Source of the DNA: Pusillimonas caeni
Lineage (GTDB): Bacteria; Pseudomonadota; Gammaproteobacteria; Burkholderiales; Burkholderiaceae_B
Assembly (NCBI RefSeq): GCF_003545815.1
Contig: NZ_PDUW01000007.1
Coordinates: 62,001-126,000 of the forward strand
Reading direction: 5' to 3'
DNA length: 64,000 bases
Below, one piece after another: positions 39,799 to 45,382 of the stretch (within the stretch, counting starts at the first letter, position 1; each line of letters begins with the position of its first letter). Position numbers and translations under genes: made by a program. A model generated the notes under the pieces. That model made no database searches, had not been told where the DNA came from, and saw only the letters and a program-made list of their open reading frames with translations.

Positions 39799-41328
39799 CT
39801 ATATCTTCTTTTCTCGGTCGGCCCAGTATTTGTCGCGAAGCAGATTCTTCTGGATCTTCCCGATGGGCGTCTTGGGAAAATCGCTGACGAACTTGATCAG
39901 GCGGGGACGCTTGAAACGCGCGAGCTTCTTCTCGCAGTGCGCGACAATGGCTTCTTCGCTAAGTTCGGCGCCTTCGCGCAGCAGCACGTAGGCGGCCGGC
40001 ACCTCGCCCCATTTATCATCGGGTATGCCGAACACCGCGCACTCGGCCACGGCGTCCAGCTCGTAGATGGCGTCCTCGATTTCCTTGGGATAAACATTTT
40101 CGCCGCCCGAGATCATCATGTCTTTGGCGCGGTCCACCAGGAAGATGAAGCCGTCTTCGTCCCTGGTGGCGAGGTCTCCGGTCAGGGCCCAGCCGTTTCT
40201 CCAGAAGGCGGCGGTCTGCTCGGGCTCGTTGTAGTACTCGATCATGACATTGTCGCCGCGCGAAGCGATCTCGCCGATTTCGCCCGGCCCGACCGGCGCG
40301 CCCTGCCGGTCGACCAGCGCCACGTCGACGTTGTAGGCCTGGCGCCCCACCGAGCCGAGCTTGTCGCGCACATACCAGGAGCGCAAGGAAGTCAGCACAC
40401 CCATTTCGGACTGCCCGTATATCTGCGTCATGGCCACCTCGGGAAGACGCTGCAGCATTTCCTTCTGCACCCAGTCCGGCATGGGCGCCCCCGCAAAGGA
40501 CACCTTGCGCCAGGATGCATACGAGGCCGGGTCGAAGCCCTTGTCGCTGACCACCATGGAAATCTGCGTGGGCACCATGAAGGCCGCCGTCATGCCCGTC
40601 TCCTTCACCATGGCGCCGAAGGCCTCGGGGCTCCATTTGGTCAGGAAGGTGCAGGTGGCGCCGACCAGCACCGCCGGCTGGAACATGATGTTCAGCGCCG
40701 CGACATGGAACAGAGGCGTGACGATGCCCACCACGTCCCGCTCGTCCAAAGCTTCTTCCATCGCCACCGTGTGCGCCGTTATATAGCGGTTGAGATGGCT
40801 GCACAGCACGCCCTTGGGCCGGCCCGTCGTGCCGCCGGTGTAGGTCATGCAGAAAGGATCCTCGGGCTTGAGGTCGAGCTCGGGATAGGTTTCGCTCGCG
40901 TCCCGATGAAAGGCATCGAACGAAAGGTCTTTCCCTTCTTCGCCGATGCGAATGAAACGCTCGAGCATGGGAGGCCGCCCTCGCACCGCATCGACCTTGT
41001 CCTGGAAGGCGTCTTCGTAGAACAAGGTGGTGACGTCGGCCTTTTCAAGCACGTAAGCCAGCTCGTCCGGTTGATACAGCGTGGATATATTGACCAGCAC
41101 AGCGCCCGAGCGCGCCACCCCGAAGAAGACAATGGCGTACTCGATGCGATTCCTGCACAGCATGCCGACCTTCTCGCCCTTGGCGACGCCGGCCTTGATC
41201 AGGGCGTGGGCCAGGCGGTTGGCCGCCAGGTCGAGCTCTCGATACGAGATGGATCGGCCCTGCCATAAAACCGCCGGTTTGGAGGGGAAGCGTTCTGCCG
41301 AACGCCGCAGCATATCGCCTGCGAGCAT
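39799..41328 (-). CDS. Acyl-CoA synthetase (AMP-forming)
   Basis: 509 residues. P-loop [13 protein letters not shown], then GQSEMG, the hinge region [32 protein letters not shown] (key DLATRDEDG and SGGENVYP) and catalytic lysine [10 protein letters not shown]. It activates a carboxylic acid to its CoA ester. I chose ATG at 41326-41328 because AGGAG lies eight bases upstream; longer in-frame starts exist up to 41442. It is the first gene of a three-gene operon divergent from an IclR regulator. The acid is unknown. Confidence 0.88.
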
Positions 41329-41400
41329 TGAATCGTCTCCTGGTGTCTTTGTCCGAATAGCGTCCGCCATGGGCGCGGCATTCGATTTGTACATACAGGC

Positions 41401-41417
41401 CAATCTTAATATGATTG
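41401..41417. promoter_or_regulatory. Candidate IclR operator
   Basis: CAATC-TTAATAT-GATTG is a 17-bp inverted repeat in the 129-bp gap between the CoA-ligase operon and the divergent IclR gene, the place and size expected for an IclR-family operator. Confidence 0.4.
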
Positions 41418-41457
41418 CGCAGAAAACCTTTCCGCCAGGCAAAAATCAAGAGAGTCC

Positions 41458-42231
41458 ATGAAACCCAACAAGGAAGACCGCCAGTTCGTCGATGCGCTGG
41501 CGCGCGGGCTGGCCATACTGGAATGCCTCTCGCGCGTGCAAAAACCCCTGGGCAACGGAGAGATCGCCAGGCTGGTCTCCCTGCCTCCGTCGACCGTCAG
41601 CCGCCTCACCTATACGCTGACTGAACTGGGCTATCTGCGCCGCTCGGAGCTGGGACGCACCTATGAACTGACGCCCAAGAACCTCACGCTGGGCTATCCC
41701 CTGCTGGCCGGCATGGAACTGCGCGACCGGCTGCGCCCGCACCTCAAGTCGATCAGCGAACGCACGGGCCAGACCGTGGCGCTGGCGATACGCGACGGCC
41801 TGCACATGTGCTTCGTGGACGTGGCCCAGGGCGCGGACCCGAACGCCATACGCCTTGCCACGGGCGGCCGCCTGCGCATGAGCGTGTCGGCCGCCGGCAT
41901 CGCCACCCTGGCTGCGATGCCCGAACGCAAGCGCTGGTCGACCTTGAACCGCCTGCGCAGCGAGTTCCAGCAGCGCGGAGAAAGCGGCGATCAGTTCGAG
42001 CAGGCGCTGCAGGCCTGCTTTCGCCTGGGCTATGCGGTGGTGCGGAATGTATGGCAGGAGGGAATCGGAGGCATCTCGGTGCCCATCCAATGGAAGGACA
42101 CGCTTGCGGCATTGACGATGCCGGTACCGACCCTGGTGGTCAGCAAGCACGACATGTACCAGGAACTGGCGCCGGTGTTGCTGGCGGCGGCGGAAGAAAT
42201 CGGCCGGGCGCGGATCGAGCCGGTCGAGTGA
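41458..42231 (+). CDS. IclR-family transcriptional regulator
   Basis: 257 residues. The N-terminal winged helix (about 10-70) contains FVDALARGLAILECLS and VSLPPSTVSRLTYTLTELGYL (key PPSTVSRL). An IclR effector domain follows to the C terminus (IGGISVPI). ATG at 41458 is preceded by AAGAGAG. It is divergent from the CoA-ligase/crotonase operon and most likely controls it in response to a small aromatic or organic acid. Confidence 0.9.
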   Translation: MKPNKEDRQFVDALARGLAILECLSRVQKPLGNGEIARLVSLPPSTVSRLTYTLTELGYLRRSELGRTYELTPKNLTLGYPLLAGMELRDRLRPHLKSISERTGQTVALAIRDGLHMCFVDVAQGADPNAIRLATGGRLRMSVSAAGIATLAAMPERKRWSTLNRLRSEFQQRGESGDQFEQALQACFRLGYAVVRNVWQEGIGGISVPIQWKDTLAALTMPVPTLVVSKHDMYQELAPVLLAAAEEIGRARIEPVE

Positions 42232-42385
42232 TTGCGAGTCGCTGGTTTTTAGCTTTGCTCCGTTACTGCGTAGGCGGCGAAGTTCTTTGTTCTTGACCCG
42301 ACTCTGCGTTGGCAGTGAGTTCTTTGTTCTTAATCCGTCCCTATGCTCAATGTGAGGCATATAGCTCTAAACTCGTGCCTGCGCT

Positions 42386-42517
42386 GCGGGGGTGTGCTTG
42401 GTCGGGCAGCGGCGGTCGGCCCTTCGGGCACGCCTGTCCGCTTCGTCCGGGGCTTATGCCCTCTCCCTTCAGCGGCGCCTGGCTCTCCCACCAATGCCCG
42501 CCCAAGCACACCCCCGC
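42386..42517. repeat. Inverted repeat with 22-bp arms
   Basis: The left arm 42386-42407 begins GCGGGGGTGTGCTTGG. The right arm 42496-42517 is its inverse with one mismatch in 22. Between them are 88 bp with a smaller GCCCTTCGGGC hairpin. There is no coding content. Confidence 0.7.
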
Positions 42518-42589
42518 ATCACAGGGACTGCATCGGAGCAAGGAGACGGTCTGCGTGCGAGGCACGCGCCACAATATTCGAAATTGTGA

Positions 42590-42823
42590 GGCGTGGGGCG
42601 GGCTCCTATTTTGGGCGACGTCCGAGCAAGCCGAGCACCCTGTCAGTTTTGGGGCGCCCGGCTAGGGGAGGTAAGCCCGCAGCTGTCTGAGCAACAAGGG
42701 TGGCGGGCCACTGGCCCGCCGTTGCGAGTTCTGCGGGCGCCCCAAAACTGATAGGGTGCGAGGGTAGTCCGGCGAAGCCGGACCGCAGCGAGCGGCGCCC
42801 AAAATAGGAGCCCGCCCCACGCC
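42590..42823. repeat. 234-bp nested palindrome with three stems
   Basis: Outer arms 42590-42617 and 42796-42823 are exact inverses over 28 bp (GGCGTGGGGCGGGCTCC...). Middle arms 42635-42660 and 42734-42759 match over 26 bp with one mismatch (GCACCCTGTCAGTTTTGGGG...). The central stem GGCGGGCC-ACT-GGCCCGCC is at 42702-42720, flanked by GCAAC/GTTGC. A side hairpin GTCCGGC-GAA-GCCGGAC lies at 42767-42783. The design resembles a non-autonomous palindromic element or a structured RNA. No clear target-site duplication was seen. Confidence 0.75.
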
Positions 42824-42971
42824 GGCTTAAATACTCAAAGAAGGGACTCAAAGAAAAGACCCAAAGAATGAACCCAAAGACAGCCTTCCAAATTGAAGAG
42901 CTACGAAAGGCCCCTCCAACTACCTCCCCGCGCCCTCAAAAAACTGGCGATCGCCCTGCCCCGAACACAGA

Positions 42972-44465
42972 TCAGAACACTCGCGCCGATACCCCCAATT
43001 GCGCACGACGGCGCAGCCATTGGCTGGGACGATAACGATCATCTCCCGTCAACGCCTGCAACTGCTGCAAGATGAGGTGGATGTTCTTCACCCCCAAAGC
43101 GTCCGCCATCTCCAGCGGCCCCGAAGGATAATTCAAGCCCAGCCGCATCGCACAATCGATGTCGTCCACGCTGGCTACCCCGCTCTGCGCCATCTCGCAG
43201 CCCAGGTTCGCGACCATCGCCACCATGCGCTGGCCGATGAAGCCGGGCGAATCGCCGATGAGCGTGACCTTGCGGCGGCGCGCCAGCAGCGACGCCACGC
43301 CTTGCCTGATCGATTCCTCGGCGCCCGGCGCGGCCATGAGCGTGACCCGGCTGCGTGTGTCGCCCAGCGTGTCGATGGCCATCGTGCGAAGGCGGTCCAG
43401 CCCTTCCCGGCACACATAGGCCGTGCAATCCTCGCCCAGCGGCGCAATCAGGATCGGGGAGCGGCCGTCGTCCGAATCGAGCAGCTCCGCACCGCATTCG
43501 GCCATCAGTTCGCGCAGCACGGTCGACTCGCCGTGCACGAATACCGTAGCGGTCGGTTCGGCGTCGAATGTAGGCTCGGCGGCCGCGTCTTCCGATTCCG
43601 GCTCGTACCGGAAAAAACCCCGCCCCGCCTTCCGGCCCAGTTGGCCTGTTTCCACCATATAGCGGTGCAAAGGCGTGGAGCGCAGGCGCGGATCGTAGAA
43701 ATAGCACTCATGGACAAAGCGCGTGACCGGGAAATTCACGTCCATACCGGTCAGATCCATGAGCTCGAACGGCCCCATTCGAAAGCCATGGCAATCGCGC
43801 ATCACCGCGTCGATCTGGGCCGGCGTGGCGACGCCCTCCTGCACGATGGCCAGCGCCTCGGTCGGGTAAGCGCGTCCGCCGAAGTTCACCAGAAAGCCCG
43901 GCGTGTCCCGCACGCGTACGGGCGTCTTGCCCATGCGCCGCCCAAGGTCCACCAGAAAGTCGAGAACCGCCTCTTCCGTATCGGGCCCCGCAATCACTTC
44001 GACCAGCTTCATGAGCGGCACGGGATTGAAGAAATGCATGCCCGCGATACGTCCGCGATGCCGCCGCCCCGCCGCCAGCGCACCGATGGGAATGGACGAA
44101 GTATTCGAAGCCAAGACCGCCTCTGGCCGCAGGATGTCCTCCAGCTGCTCGAACAGCCCCGCCTTGGCATCGAGGTCTTCGATGATGGCCTCGACCACCA
44201 CATCGCAGTCCTTCAACTCGTCCAGGCCGCGCACGGCAGCCAGGCGCCGCTTCGTTCCCTCGGCCTCGTCGGCGGAAAGCTTGCCCTGCCCGACACGCTT
44301 GTCCAGCCGCGCCCCAATGGCTTCGCATGCCTTCTGCGCCGCCCCCTCGCGCGCGTCGACCAGGCGCACATCGATGCCACTGGCCGAGGCCGCATGGGCG
44401 ATGCCGGCGCCCATGGCGCCCGCCCCGACTATGCCCAAGGAAATGGTTGTCTGTTTTTGAGTCAT
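42972..44465 (-). CDS. 3-hydroxyacyl-CoA dehydrogenase, two C-terminal domains (PaaH-like)
   Basis: 497 residues. The NAD fold reads LGIVGAGAMGAGIAHAA. The catalytic His is in GMHFFNPVPLMKLVEV. The first 3HCDH C-domain is about 190-285 (TPGFLVNFGGRAYPTEAL) and a second is about 400-485 (DSPGFIGQRMVAMVANLG). This long form is typical of PaaH-type enzymes of aromatic-acid degradation. It oxidises 3-hydroxyacyl-CoA to 3-oxoacyl-CoA. ATG at 44463-44465 follows GGAAG; the TTG four codons upstream was rejected. It is the last gene of the TRAP-SDR operon, 137 bp after the SDR gene. Confidence 0.9.
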   Translation of the reverse strand: MTQKQTTISLGIVGAGAMGAGIAHAASASGIDVRLVDAREGAAQKACEAIGARLDKRVGQGKLSADEAEGTKRRLAAVRGLDELKDCDVVVEAIIEDLDAKAGLFEQLEDILRPEAVLASNTSSIPIGALAAGRRHRGRIAGMHFFNPVPLMKLVEVIAGPDTEEAVLDFLVDLGRRMGKTPVRVRDTPGFLVNFGGRAYPTEALAIVQEGVATPAQIDAVMRDCHGFRMGPFELMDLTGMDVNFPVTRFVHECYFYDPRLRSTPLHRYMVETGQLGRKAGRGFFRYEPESEDAAAEPTFDAEPTATVFVHGESTVLRELMAECGAELLDSDDGRSPILIAPLGEDCTAYVCREGLDRLRTMAIDTLGDTRSRVTLMAAPGAEESIRQGVASLLARRRKVTLIGDSPGFIGQRMVAMVANLGCEMAQSGVASVDDIDCAMRLGLNYPSGPLEMADALGVKNIHLILQQLQALTGDDRYRPSQWLRRRAQLGVSARVF

Positions 44466-44602
44466 GAGTTCTTCCAATCAATCCGGCCCCGCAAGACACA
44501 CAGCCTGTCATCGCGCCTCATGCACGACTGAAGCGCGCCGTACGCAGGCATCAAGCCACGCATCTTTATCGTCAAAAATGTGAAGGAGCGCACGCACCCG
44601 TC

Positions 44603-45382
44603 TTACAACAAAGAGCGCACCAATCCACCGTCCACCGTAACGTTCTGCCCCGTCATGTACGCGGCATGCTTGGAACACAGAAAGGCGCATACGGGACCGA
44701 AGTCGTCGGCCGTGCCGAGCCTCCCCATGGGCACCGAGGCCGCCATGCGGGCCTTGGCTTCCTCCTGCGTGATGCCCTCGCGCTTGGACTGCGCCGCATA
44801 GACTCGCACGAGCGCGCCCGTATCCATCAGGCCGGGCAGGATGTTGTTGACTGTGATGCCCAATCCCGCCACCTCTTGGGCCAGGCTCGACATGGCGCCC
44901 GTCAGGCCCGCACGCACGCCGGTTGCCAGCCCCATGTTGGCGTAGGGTTCGCGCACGGTAAACGAGGTGACGTTGACGATGCGCCCGAACCCGTCCGACT
45001 TCATGTCGGGCAACACCATGACGGCGAAATCCAGAGCGGCCAGCATATTGGTTTCAAGCGCCTTGAGCCAGACATCGCGTTCGTGGCCTTCGACCGGGCC
45101 GGGCGGCGGCCCGCCCGCATTGGTGACGAGGATGGTGACGGGACCCAGGTGCTGCCGCGCCTGCTGCATGACGCGCTCGCGCTCGGCGGGAACGGAAACG
45201 TCGCCCGCAACGGCGACGGCATGGGCCCCCAGCGACCGGGCCGCTTGTTCCGCGCGCTGCGCATCCCTGCCGTTGACGGCCACCCGCACGCCCGCCTCGG
45301 CCAGCGCTTTGGCGCAAGCTAGGCCCAGGCCCTGGCTGCCCCCCAGCACGAGTGCGGACCGTCCTTCTATACCCAAATCCAT
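44603..45382 (-). CDS. SDR-family protein lacking the catalytic Tyr-x3-Lys
   Basis: 259 residues with a Rossmann fold: LVLGGSQGLGLACAKAL for NAD(P), NAGG, and the C-terminal MTGQNVTVDGG. After the catalytic serine (NVTSFTVREP) the usual YxxxK is replaced by NMGLATGVRAGL. This fits the known oxidoreductase-like SDR subgroup without the Tyr/Lys pair, whose activity is poorly defined. It lies between TRAP genes (25-bp gap) and a 3-hydroxyacyl-CoA dehydrogenase, so a step on the imported acid is likely. Confidence 0.85.
   Translation of the reverse strand: MDLGIEGRSALVLGGSQGLGLACAKALAEAGVRVAVNGRDAQRAEQAARSLGAHAVAVAGDVSVPAERERVMQQARQHLGPVTILVTNAGGPPPGPVEGHERDVWLKALETNMLAALDFAVMVLPDMKSDGFGRIVNVTSFTVREPYANMGLATGVRAGLTGAMSSLAQEVAGLGITVNNILPGLMDTGALVRVYAAQSKREGITQEEAKARMAASVPMGRLGTADDFGPVCAFLCSKHAAYMTGQNVTVDGGLVRSLL

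Follow-up and report, generated by a model that had tools for sequence, protein, structure and literature searches.

A large structured hairpin in an intergenic space of Pusillimonas caeni, possibly half of a REPIN-like mobile repeat of Burkholderiales

The window, by which we mean the whole 64,000-nucleotide stretch of the Pusillimonas caeni genome analysed here, contains a space between two convergent genes at 41458-42231 (+) and 42972-44477 (-), in which a 234-bp element with three nested stems had originally been predicted at 42590-42823. Gene calling in the gap holding 42282-42880 gave no gene and the open reading frame list only short overlapping frames, in agreement with the gene-free gap first described. 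The hairpin itself lies where it was placed; the feature as a whole extends further, to a 3' tail on its right (42824-42880) and to a left partner palindrome which together with its own tails spans 42282-42517. The hairpin had been singled out as the only structure in the window that no named family explains, a statement that gives way to the finding that the second palindrome (42386-42517) belongs to the same composite unit. We refer to the hairpin as P-I, to its partner as P-II, to the P. caeni genome (a 4.44-Mb draft assembly) as G000, to the sister and third genus genomes as G001 and G002, and to the window copy as L001. The features are as follows, with the basis of each in brackets.

42282..42880, no strand: whole composite unit, between the convergent genes (557-bp match of L001 to L005; gene context)
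42282..42337, minus strand: outward tail repeats of P-II, GTTCTTTGTTCTTGACCCG and GTTCTTTGTTCTTAATCCG on the plus strand (sequence reading)
42386..42517, minus strand: partner palindrome P-II, arms 42386-42407 / 42496-42517 with one mismatch, head-to-head with P-I (own-genome matches adjoining P-I)
42590..42617, plus strand: P1 outer stem, 5' arm (pairing; co-variation over 19 copies)
42618..42634, plus strand: left junction ACGTCCGAGCAAGCCGA (alignment; near-identical in 19 genus copies)
42635..42660, plus strand: P2 middle stem, 5' arm, 26 bp owing to a 14-nt insertion (pairing, alignment)
42676..42682, plus strand: P3 5' arm, CCCGCAG in the family consensus (37-copy alignment, model, co-variation)
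42684..42692, plus strand: core motif, 5' side, TGTCTGAGC, TGTYYGAGC in most copies (invariant or near-invariant columns, 37 copies)
42702..42720, plus strand: P4 terminal hairpin, 42702-42709 / 42713-42720 (fold, model, co-variation)
42724..42730, plus strand: core motif, 3' side, GCGAGTT (37-copy alignment; strict motif check)
42731..42737, plus strand: P3 3' arm, CTGCGGG (37-copy alignment, model, co-variation)
42734..42759, plus strand: P2 middle stem, 3' arm (pairing, alignment)
42767..42783, plus strand: P5 side hairpin GTCCGGC-GAA-GCCGGAC, 42767-42773 / 42777-42783 (fold, alignment)
42796..42823, plus strand: P1 outer stem, 3' arm (pairing; co-variation over 19 copies)
42824..42880, plus strand: 3' tail GGCTTAAATACTCAAA, then tandem tail-like repeats with a period of 13/26 (sequence reading)

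Read from the outside in, the order of the parts is P1, left junction, P2, an AGGCAAG bulge, P3, an internal loop in which TGTYYGAGC faces GCGAGTT, and P4, which is a variable hairpin; after P4 come the right junction with the side hairpin P5 and then a tail of the type GGCTTAAGAACYCAAA. The outer arms pair perfectly over 28 bp and the inner arms over 26 bp with a single mismatch, a G.T, and the central 8-bp stem and side hairpin are present, all as originally predicted. The left junction reads GACGTCCGAGCAAGCCGAG in the window copy and is 1 nt shorter in the copies of G001. The 14-nt insertion, found in L001-L003 (3/10 full copies of the own genome, 3/19 aligned copies), lengthens P2 to its 26 bp and brings it into competition with P3; the usual middle stem in the family ends at GGGG/CCCC and is followed by the AGGCAAG bulge and the separate stem CCCGCAG/CTGCGGG. 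In the smallest forms, which come from outside the order (L157, L158), P4 is reduced to GAGC-GAA-GCGAG. Folding of both strands, which had been recommended along with a search of the genome and its relatives, gave z-scores of -12.6 for the plus and -13.7 for the minus strand, with 0/200 shuffles equally stable on either.

That search revealed a multi-copy repeat, with 10 full-length copies among 25 BLAST matches in the own genome, 78-100% identical and in both orientations, and copies in all three genus genomes. BLAST detects the repeat in 16/151 family genomes; a covariance model of the core (R1; 124 positions and 44 pairs, built from 37 copies) matches 62 of the 151, in 25 of 43 genera. Across the order 56/300 genomes match, including the own genome and two more of the family, and in the class search 25/274 match, namely the own genome and 24 others, or approximately 24/271 outside the order, two members of the order appearing among those misses of that search that were listed. 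As only 11-23 candidates were scored per genome, copy numbers are lower bounds; the E-values of the model are approximate. In five of the 62 positive family genomes all 23 scored candidates match. The strict core motif pair is present in 86/113 R1 hits (3 of 116 having been dropped), in 24 of the 29 order genomes with fetched loci and in 10/11 class loci, so that the core loops are conserved in sequence across genera and beyond the order; some weak R1 hits are insecure. One such locus, L088 (G176, 302-2348), consists of five same-direction hairpin repeats within about 2 kb that do not carry the TGTYYGAGC core and is thus a probable false match, likely a different repeat on which R1 happened to score; its hits were kept in the site counts of the wider set. 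A type 2 subfamily (L016, L024, L025, L049-L052) has an identical plan with different stems and occurs alongside in G000 and G001. In L080 and its relatives from other families of the order (e.g. L082, L086, L094, L098) a 3' tail of the AAAGAAAGTAACC type with its own hairpin replaces TTAAGAAC, suggesting that tails are lineage-specific and the core common. Neither a plasmid nor a phage collection contains a match to the window element; a stretch of L080 matches short pieces in 18 plasmid records, covering at most 18% of the query.

The pairing is maintained by compensatory change. In the 37-copy core alignment 90.5% of cells in P2-P4 pair as opposed to 65.7% after shuffling, a percentage flattered by the derivation of the structure from those very sequences; both sides change in 39/44 pairs and the co-variation score is 0.615 against 0.185 shuffled, with none of 500 shuffles attaining the observed value on any of five measures. 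For P1, across 19 genus copies, 96.6% of cells pair, both sides change in 10/28 pairs and the score is 0.283 (shuffled, 0.085); 0/500 shuffles attain the observed value on four of the five measures and 1/500 does so for the count of pairs changed on both sides. A single P1 pair, 7-244, has seven unpaired cells. The original prediction held that a lone copy whose arms did not co-vary would speak against a mobile element or a structured RNA; what we find is many copies, in which both arm pairs co-vary.

The kinds of mismatch tolerated in the helices distinguish the two strands. Among 98 of 113 hits (13 were unparsed and 2 duplicates) isolated helix mismatches comprise 78 G.T, 15 A.C and 106 of other kinds, or 65, 15 and 86 when counted as distinct events, and G.T outnumbers A.C in 28 of 42 genomes with the reverse in one; a looser version of the test gave 110 G.T vs 61 A.C. 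As a duplex palindrome would be expected to show no such bias, the excess points to a single strand, here the plus strand carrying TGTYYGAGC, which folds and is selected as either RNA or single-stranded DNA. G.T is milder than A.C in DNA as well, and the test therefore applies equally to both molecules. Deamination bias of one strand is an unlikely source of the excess because copies lie in both orientations, often as inverted pairs.

P-I frequently has a partner. In the own genome all six P-II matches of at least 184 bp adjoin a P-I copy and face away from it, a partial match of 58 bp (C18:268495) is not accompanied by any listed P-I, and four of the ten P-I copies (L004, L007, L009, L010) have no P-II match of at least 184 bp. 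Of the 12 P-II matches in G001, ten have a P-I match no more than 300 bp away and two begin at contig ends, while the single P-II match of G002 has no P-I match beside it. Copies have long stretches in common: 557 bp in the case of the window copy (42284-42839), and as much as 763 bp for copies of other genomes. In the wider set, 20/26 model-hit neighbours within 600 bp of each other are head-to-head, an arrangement seen in 19/45 genomes and with a gap of 110-154 bp in 12 of the 20. At 63/87 sites there is one model hit only; to the extent that R1, which is blind to partners such as P-II, can show it, not every copy is paired. The tails that point outward from the two halves are related to one another in inverted orientation, and their frequent tandem repetition blurs the exact ends. 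In our reading, two inverted halves with tails pointing outward make up the unit, of which in many cases one half alone survives.

The repeat lies mostly behind genes, and in many cases between convergent ones. When genes were called by codon usage, convergent genes flanked 15 of the 21 genus sites that could be resolved, compared with 10/51 pairs of adjacent genes in the window (p=7e-5); a cruder caller placed 14/26 genus sites between such genes. Using the cruder caller on the 87 sites of the wider set, 38 of 77 resolved were convergent (control, 33/140) and divergent spaces were avoided (3/77 vs 26/140). The gene on the 3' side of the element points toward it in 20/22 genus copies and in 79/106 of the wider set.

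Comparison of sites between species suggests a history of both inheritance and turnover. Thirteen own loci were compared with loci fetched from G001, and for 6 of them the element is present at the corresponding site, indicating that much is inherited. At L002/L039 and L005/L030 the corresponding sites are occupied with both flanks matching, whereas at L006/L052 and L016/L042 both flanks match but the other subfamily is in place. L001 and L008 each match via two G001 contig ends, and at two of those four ends (L036, L045) there is a match to RF02001, a group II intron, from which we infer that each G001 counterpart is one site split by such an intron. The intron in these G001 copies lies inside the core, between GCGAG and TTTT, where the contigs end, L036 and L045 being the 5' sides and L040 and L046 the 3' sides; this, the best conserved site of the repeat, may be what the intron targets. 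Emptiness was tested by direct search at two of the remaining seven loci, both of which are empty in the sister species: at L004 the aligned gene ends lie 16 bp apart in G001 and 54 bp apart in G002 vs 370 bp in G000, and at L009 they are 20 bp apart in G001 vs 421 bp in G000, with the G002 site holding P-II in a different orientation. A visual comparison of filled with empty sites at the two loci, whose flanks have diverged, revealed no clean target duplication, as had been noted for the window copy.

For each of the 19 full copies the nearest relative is another copy from the genome in which it lies. Two comparable pairs at orthologous sites are 69% and 76% identical when other between-genome pairs average 74%, and the flanks of orthologous-site pairs are 83-88% identical in long matches. 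Copies within G000 differ by 3-26%, and so show no sign of very recent movement there. At L017 (1501-1529) and to the left of the type 2 copy in L016 we observed remnants in which the 5' end is joined straight to the tail and the body is absent, as expected from deletion of a palindrome. Overall the repeat seems to come and go between species.

Comparison with known families gave partial likenesses. No Rfam match attains the gathering score in window positions 40000-45000 (E<=1) or in 32 loci (E<=10), and we found no description of this repeat family in the open-licence papers searched. HEARO, the omega RNA of IscB/IsrB, is a structured RNA tied to a mobile element; it is similar in size to the hairpin, which has a TGA triplet immediately 5' of it in 14/19 genus copies. 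This candidate was rejected, with RF02033 matching 0/3 genus genomes at E<=10 and the RRXRR domain of IscB/IsrB 0/3 at E<=1. Miniature inverted-repeat elements (MITEs) are likewise short and gene-less, and they resemble the repeat in its presence or absence between species and perhaps in the outward tails inverted at the two ends; the structure here goes far beyond a simple terminal inverted repeat pair, and no clean target duplication was seen at the two loci compared. Bordetella is of the same family (Alcaligenaceae) as Pusillimonas noertemannii. Its Bor-1 and Bor-2 stem-loop families are intergenic and predicted to be structured, with models of 93-167 nt, and in the portion of the source available no pairing, core motif or tails are described for them (PMC2267715); compared by description only, they could overlap with this repeat.

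The closest resemblance is to REPINs, which as described in the available portions of the literature are inverted doublets of extragenic palindromes (REPs) that fold as single strands and occur as species-wise variants (PMC3116915, PMC3733652, PMC8266576). According to the same portions the likeness extends to an inverted doublet as the unit, many copies and a location behind coding regions, between convergent or unidirectional genes. The differences are those of size, with halves of approximately 100-234 nt here and REPs described there as palindromes of 20-40 bp (PMC3116915, PMC3733652, PMC8266576), and of architecture, the fold here being multi-stem with internal loops conserved in sequence. 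The REP tag, given in the excerpts available as GTAG (or CGTC), has a counterpart here only in the GTAG beside P5 in 3/10 own copies. REPINs are described in those excerpts as going with a Y1 transposase, RAYT (TnpA_REP), and no match to Y1 transposases of the IS200/RAYT type was found in G000, G001 or G002 at E<=0.001. Across the family Y1 matches occur in 13/62 element-positive and 20/89 element-negative genomes (p=1), the Y1 and R1 genome lists, which carry the same handles, being taken as one draw; RAYT-like matches, a label set by score and frame length as distinct from a family assignment, occur in 5/62 and 4/89 respectively of the genomes sorted by the model list (p=0.49). For eight of the nine RAYT-like genes the surrounding 3-5.5 kb were scanned with R1, without a hit. 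A RAYT link suggested by the blastn list (4/16 vs 5/135, p=0.008) was lost with the model list. Given the misfit of tag, size and transposase we regard the repeat as working like a REPIN and do not call it one.

Several explanations other than a mobile repeat have to be weighed against these data. We consider it unlikely that the copies are a family of structured non-coding RNA genes, with the plus strand transcribed and folded, core loops that bind a protein or RNA, and each pair representing two divergent RNAs. Such genes would account for the strand asymmetry of mismatches, for core loops kept in sequence across genera and past the order, and for stems that vary freely yet remain paired; however a consensus scan of 42200-43000 gave no sigma-70 promoter-like or intrinsic terminator-like site, the partner spacer differs in length and sequence among the regions read so that no conserved promoter region is evident, and the many copies per genome with their tails and remnants resemble a repeat. 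Less probable still is a 3'-end element kept by selection behind genes as a transcription barrier or protector of mRNA 3' ends, one that would be bidirectional as both halves face outward. The orientation of the gene on the 3' side and the avoidance of divergent spaces are what such an element predicts, but it is the minus strand that would be in that gene's mRNA when the mismatch types favour the plus strand, and orthologous sites can be empty. A scan of 42200-43000 gave no T-run (intrinsic) terminator, which speaks against this element and against the double terminator offered in the original prediction. That prediction also offered a MITE-like element, a structured RNA and a recombination site; our data support a non-autonomous mobile repeat as well as a structure formed by one strand.

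We think it about equally improbable that these are functionless double-stranded palindromes, cut as cruciforms or hairpins, repaired from other copies and kept alike by gene conversion. SbcCD is a nuclease that cuts cruciforms and hairpins, and the within-genome similarity at shared sites, the body-deleted remnants (L017; beside L016) and arms that change jointly over several adjacent pairs would all fit; but there is no evident reason why a duplex should show the G.T excess over A.C, nor why unpaired core loops should be so strictly kept, and conversion alone leaves the occupancy of sites that are empty in relatives unexplained unless these are losses. The same process bears on mobility itself, as gene conversion could homogenise copies that do not transpose and the emptiness of the two sites could be due to loss. 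Of similarly low probability in our judgement is a new class of mobile structured RNA element. Its plus-strand RNA, with a tail and a strictly conserved internal-loop core, would in its own right be what moves or guides, either by being reverse-transcribed or by serving a partner as a guide, and would insert itself in head-to-head pairs downstream of genes in Burkholderiales as well as in other orders of the class.

The explanation we favour, with about even confidence, is that the 234-bp stretch is half of a REPIN-like, non-autonomous mobile repeat with an elaborate core, acted on as a folded single strand. The unit would consist of two structured hairpins set head-to-head, their tails pointing outward, and its acting form would be the folded plus strand of each hairpin, as single-stranded DNA or RNA. 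The long variable stems would supply shape, while the core loops (the AGGCAAG bulge, and TGTYYGAGC facing GCGAGTT) and the tail, presumably the recognised end, would be read by sequence. From the combined evidence we infer transposition via a single-stranded intermediate and an enzyme acting in trans, which would copy the unit into spaces directly behind genes, mostly between convergent genes; we propose that these are favoured because insertion does least harm there. The tail repeats, the body-deleted remnants and the replacement of one subfamily by another would then result from insertions and losses that recur at the same sites.

Known REP and REPIN repeats are very small and go with Y1 transposases, whereas the single-strand structure described here is much larger and more finely conserved, and in the genus no Y1 partner accompanies it. 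It is present in 62 of the 151 family genomes sampled and more thinly across the order and class, with its core loops kept and turnover within genomes apparent. If the repeat is mobile then the agent would be either a mobiliser not yet described or an enzyme of the host that works on folded strands, and if it is an RNA it would represent a common structured RNA absent from Rfam.
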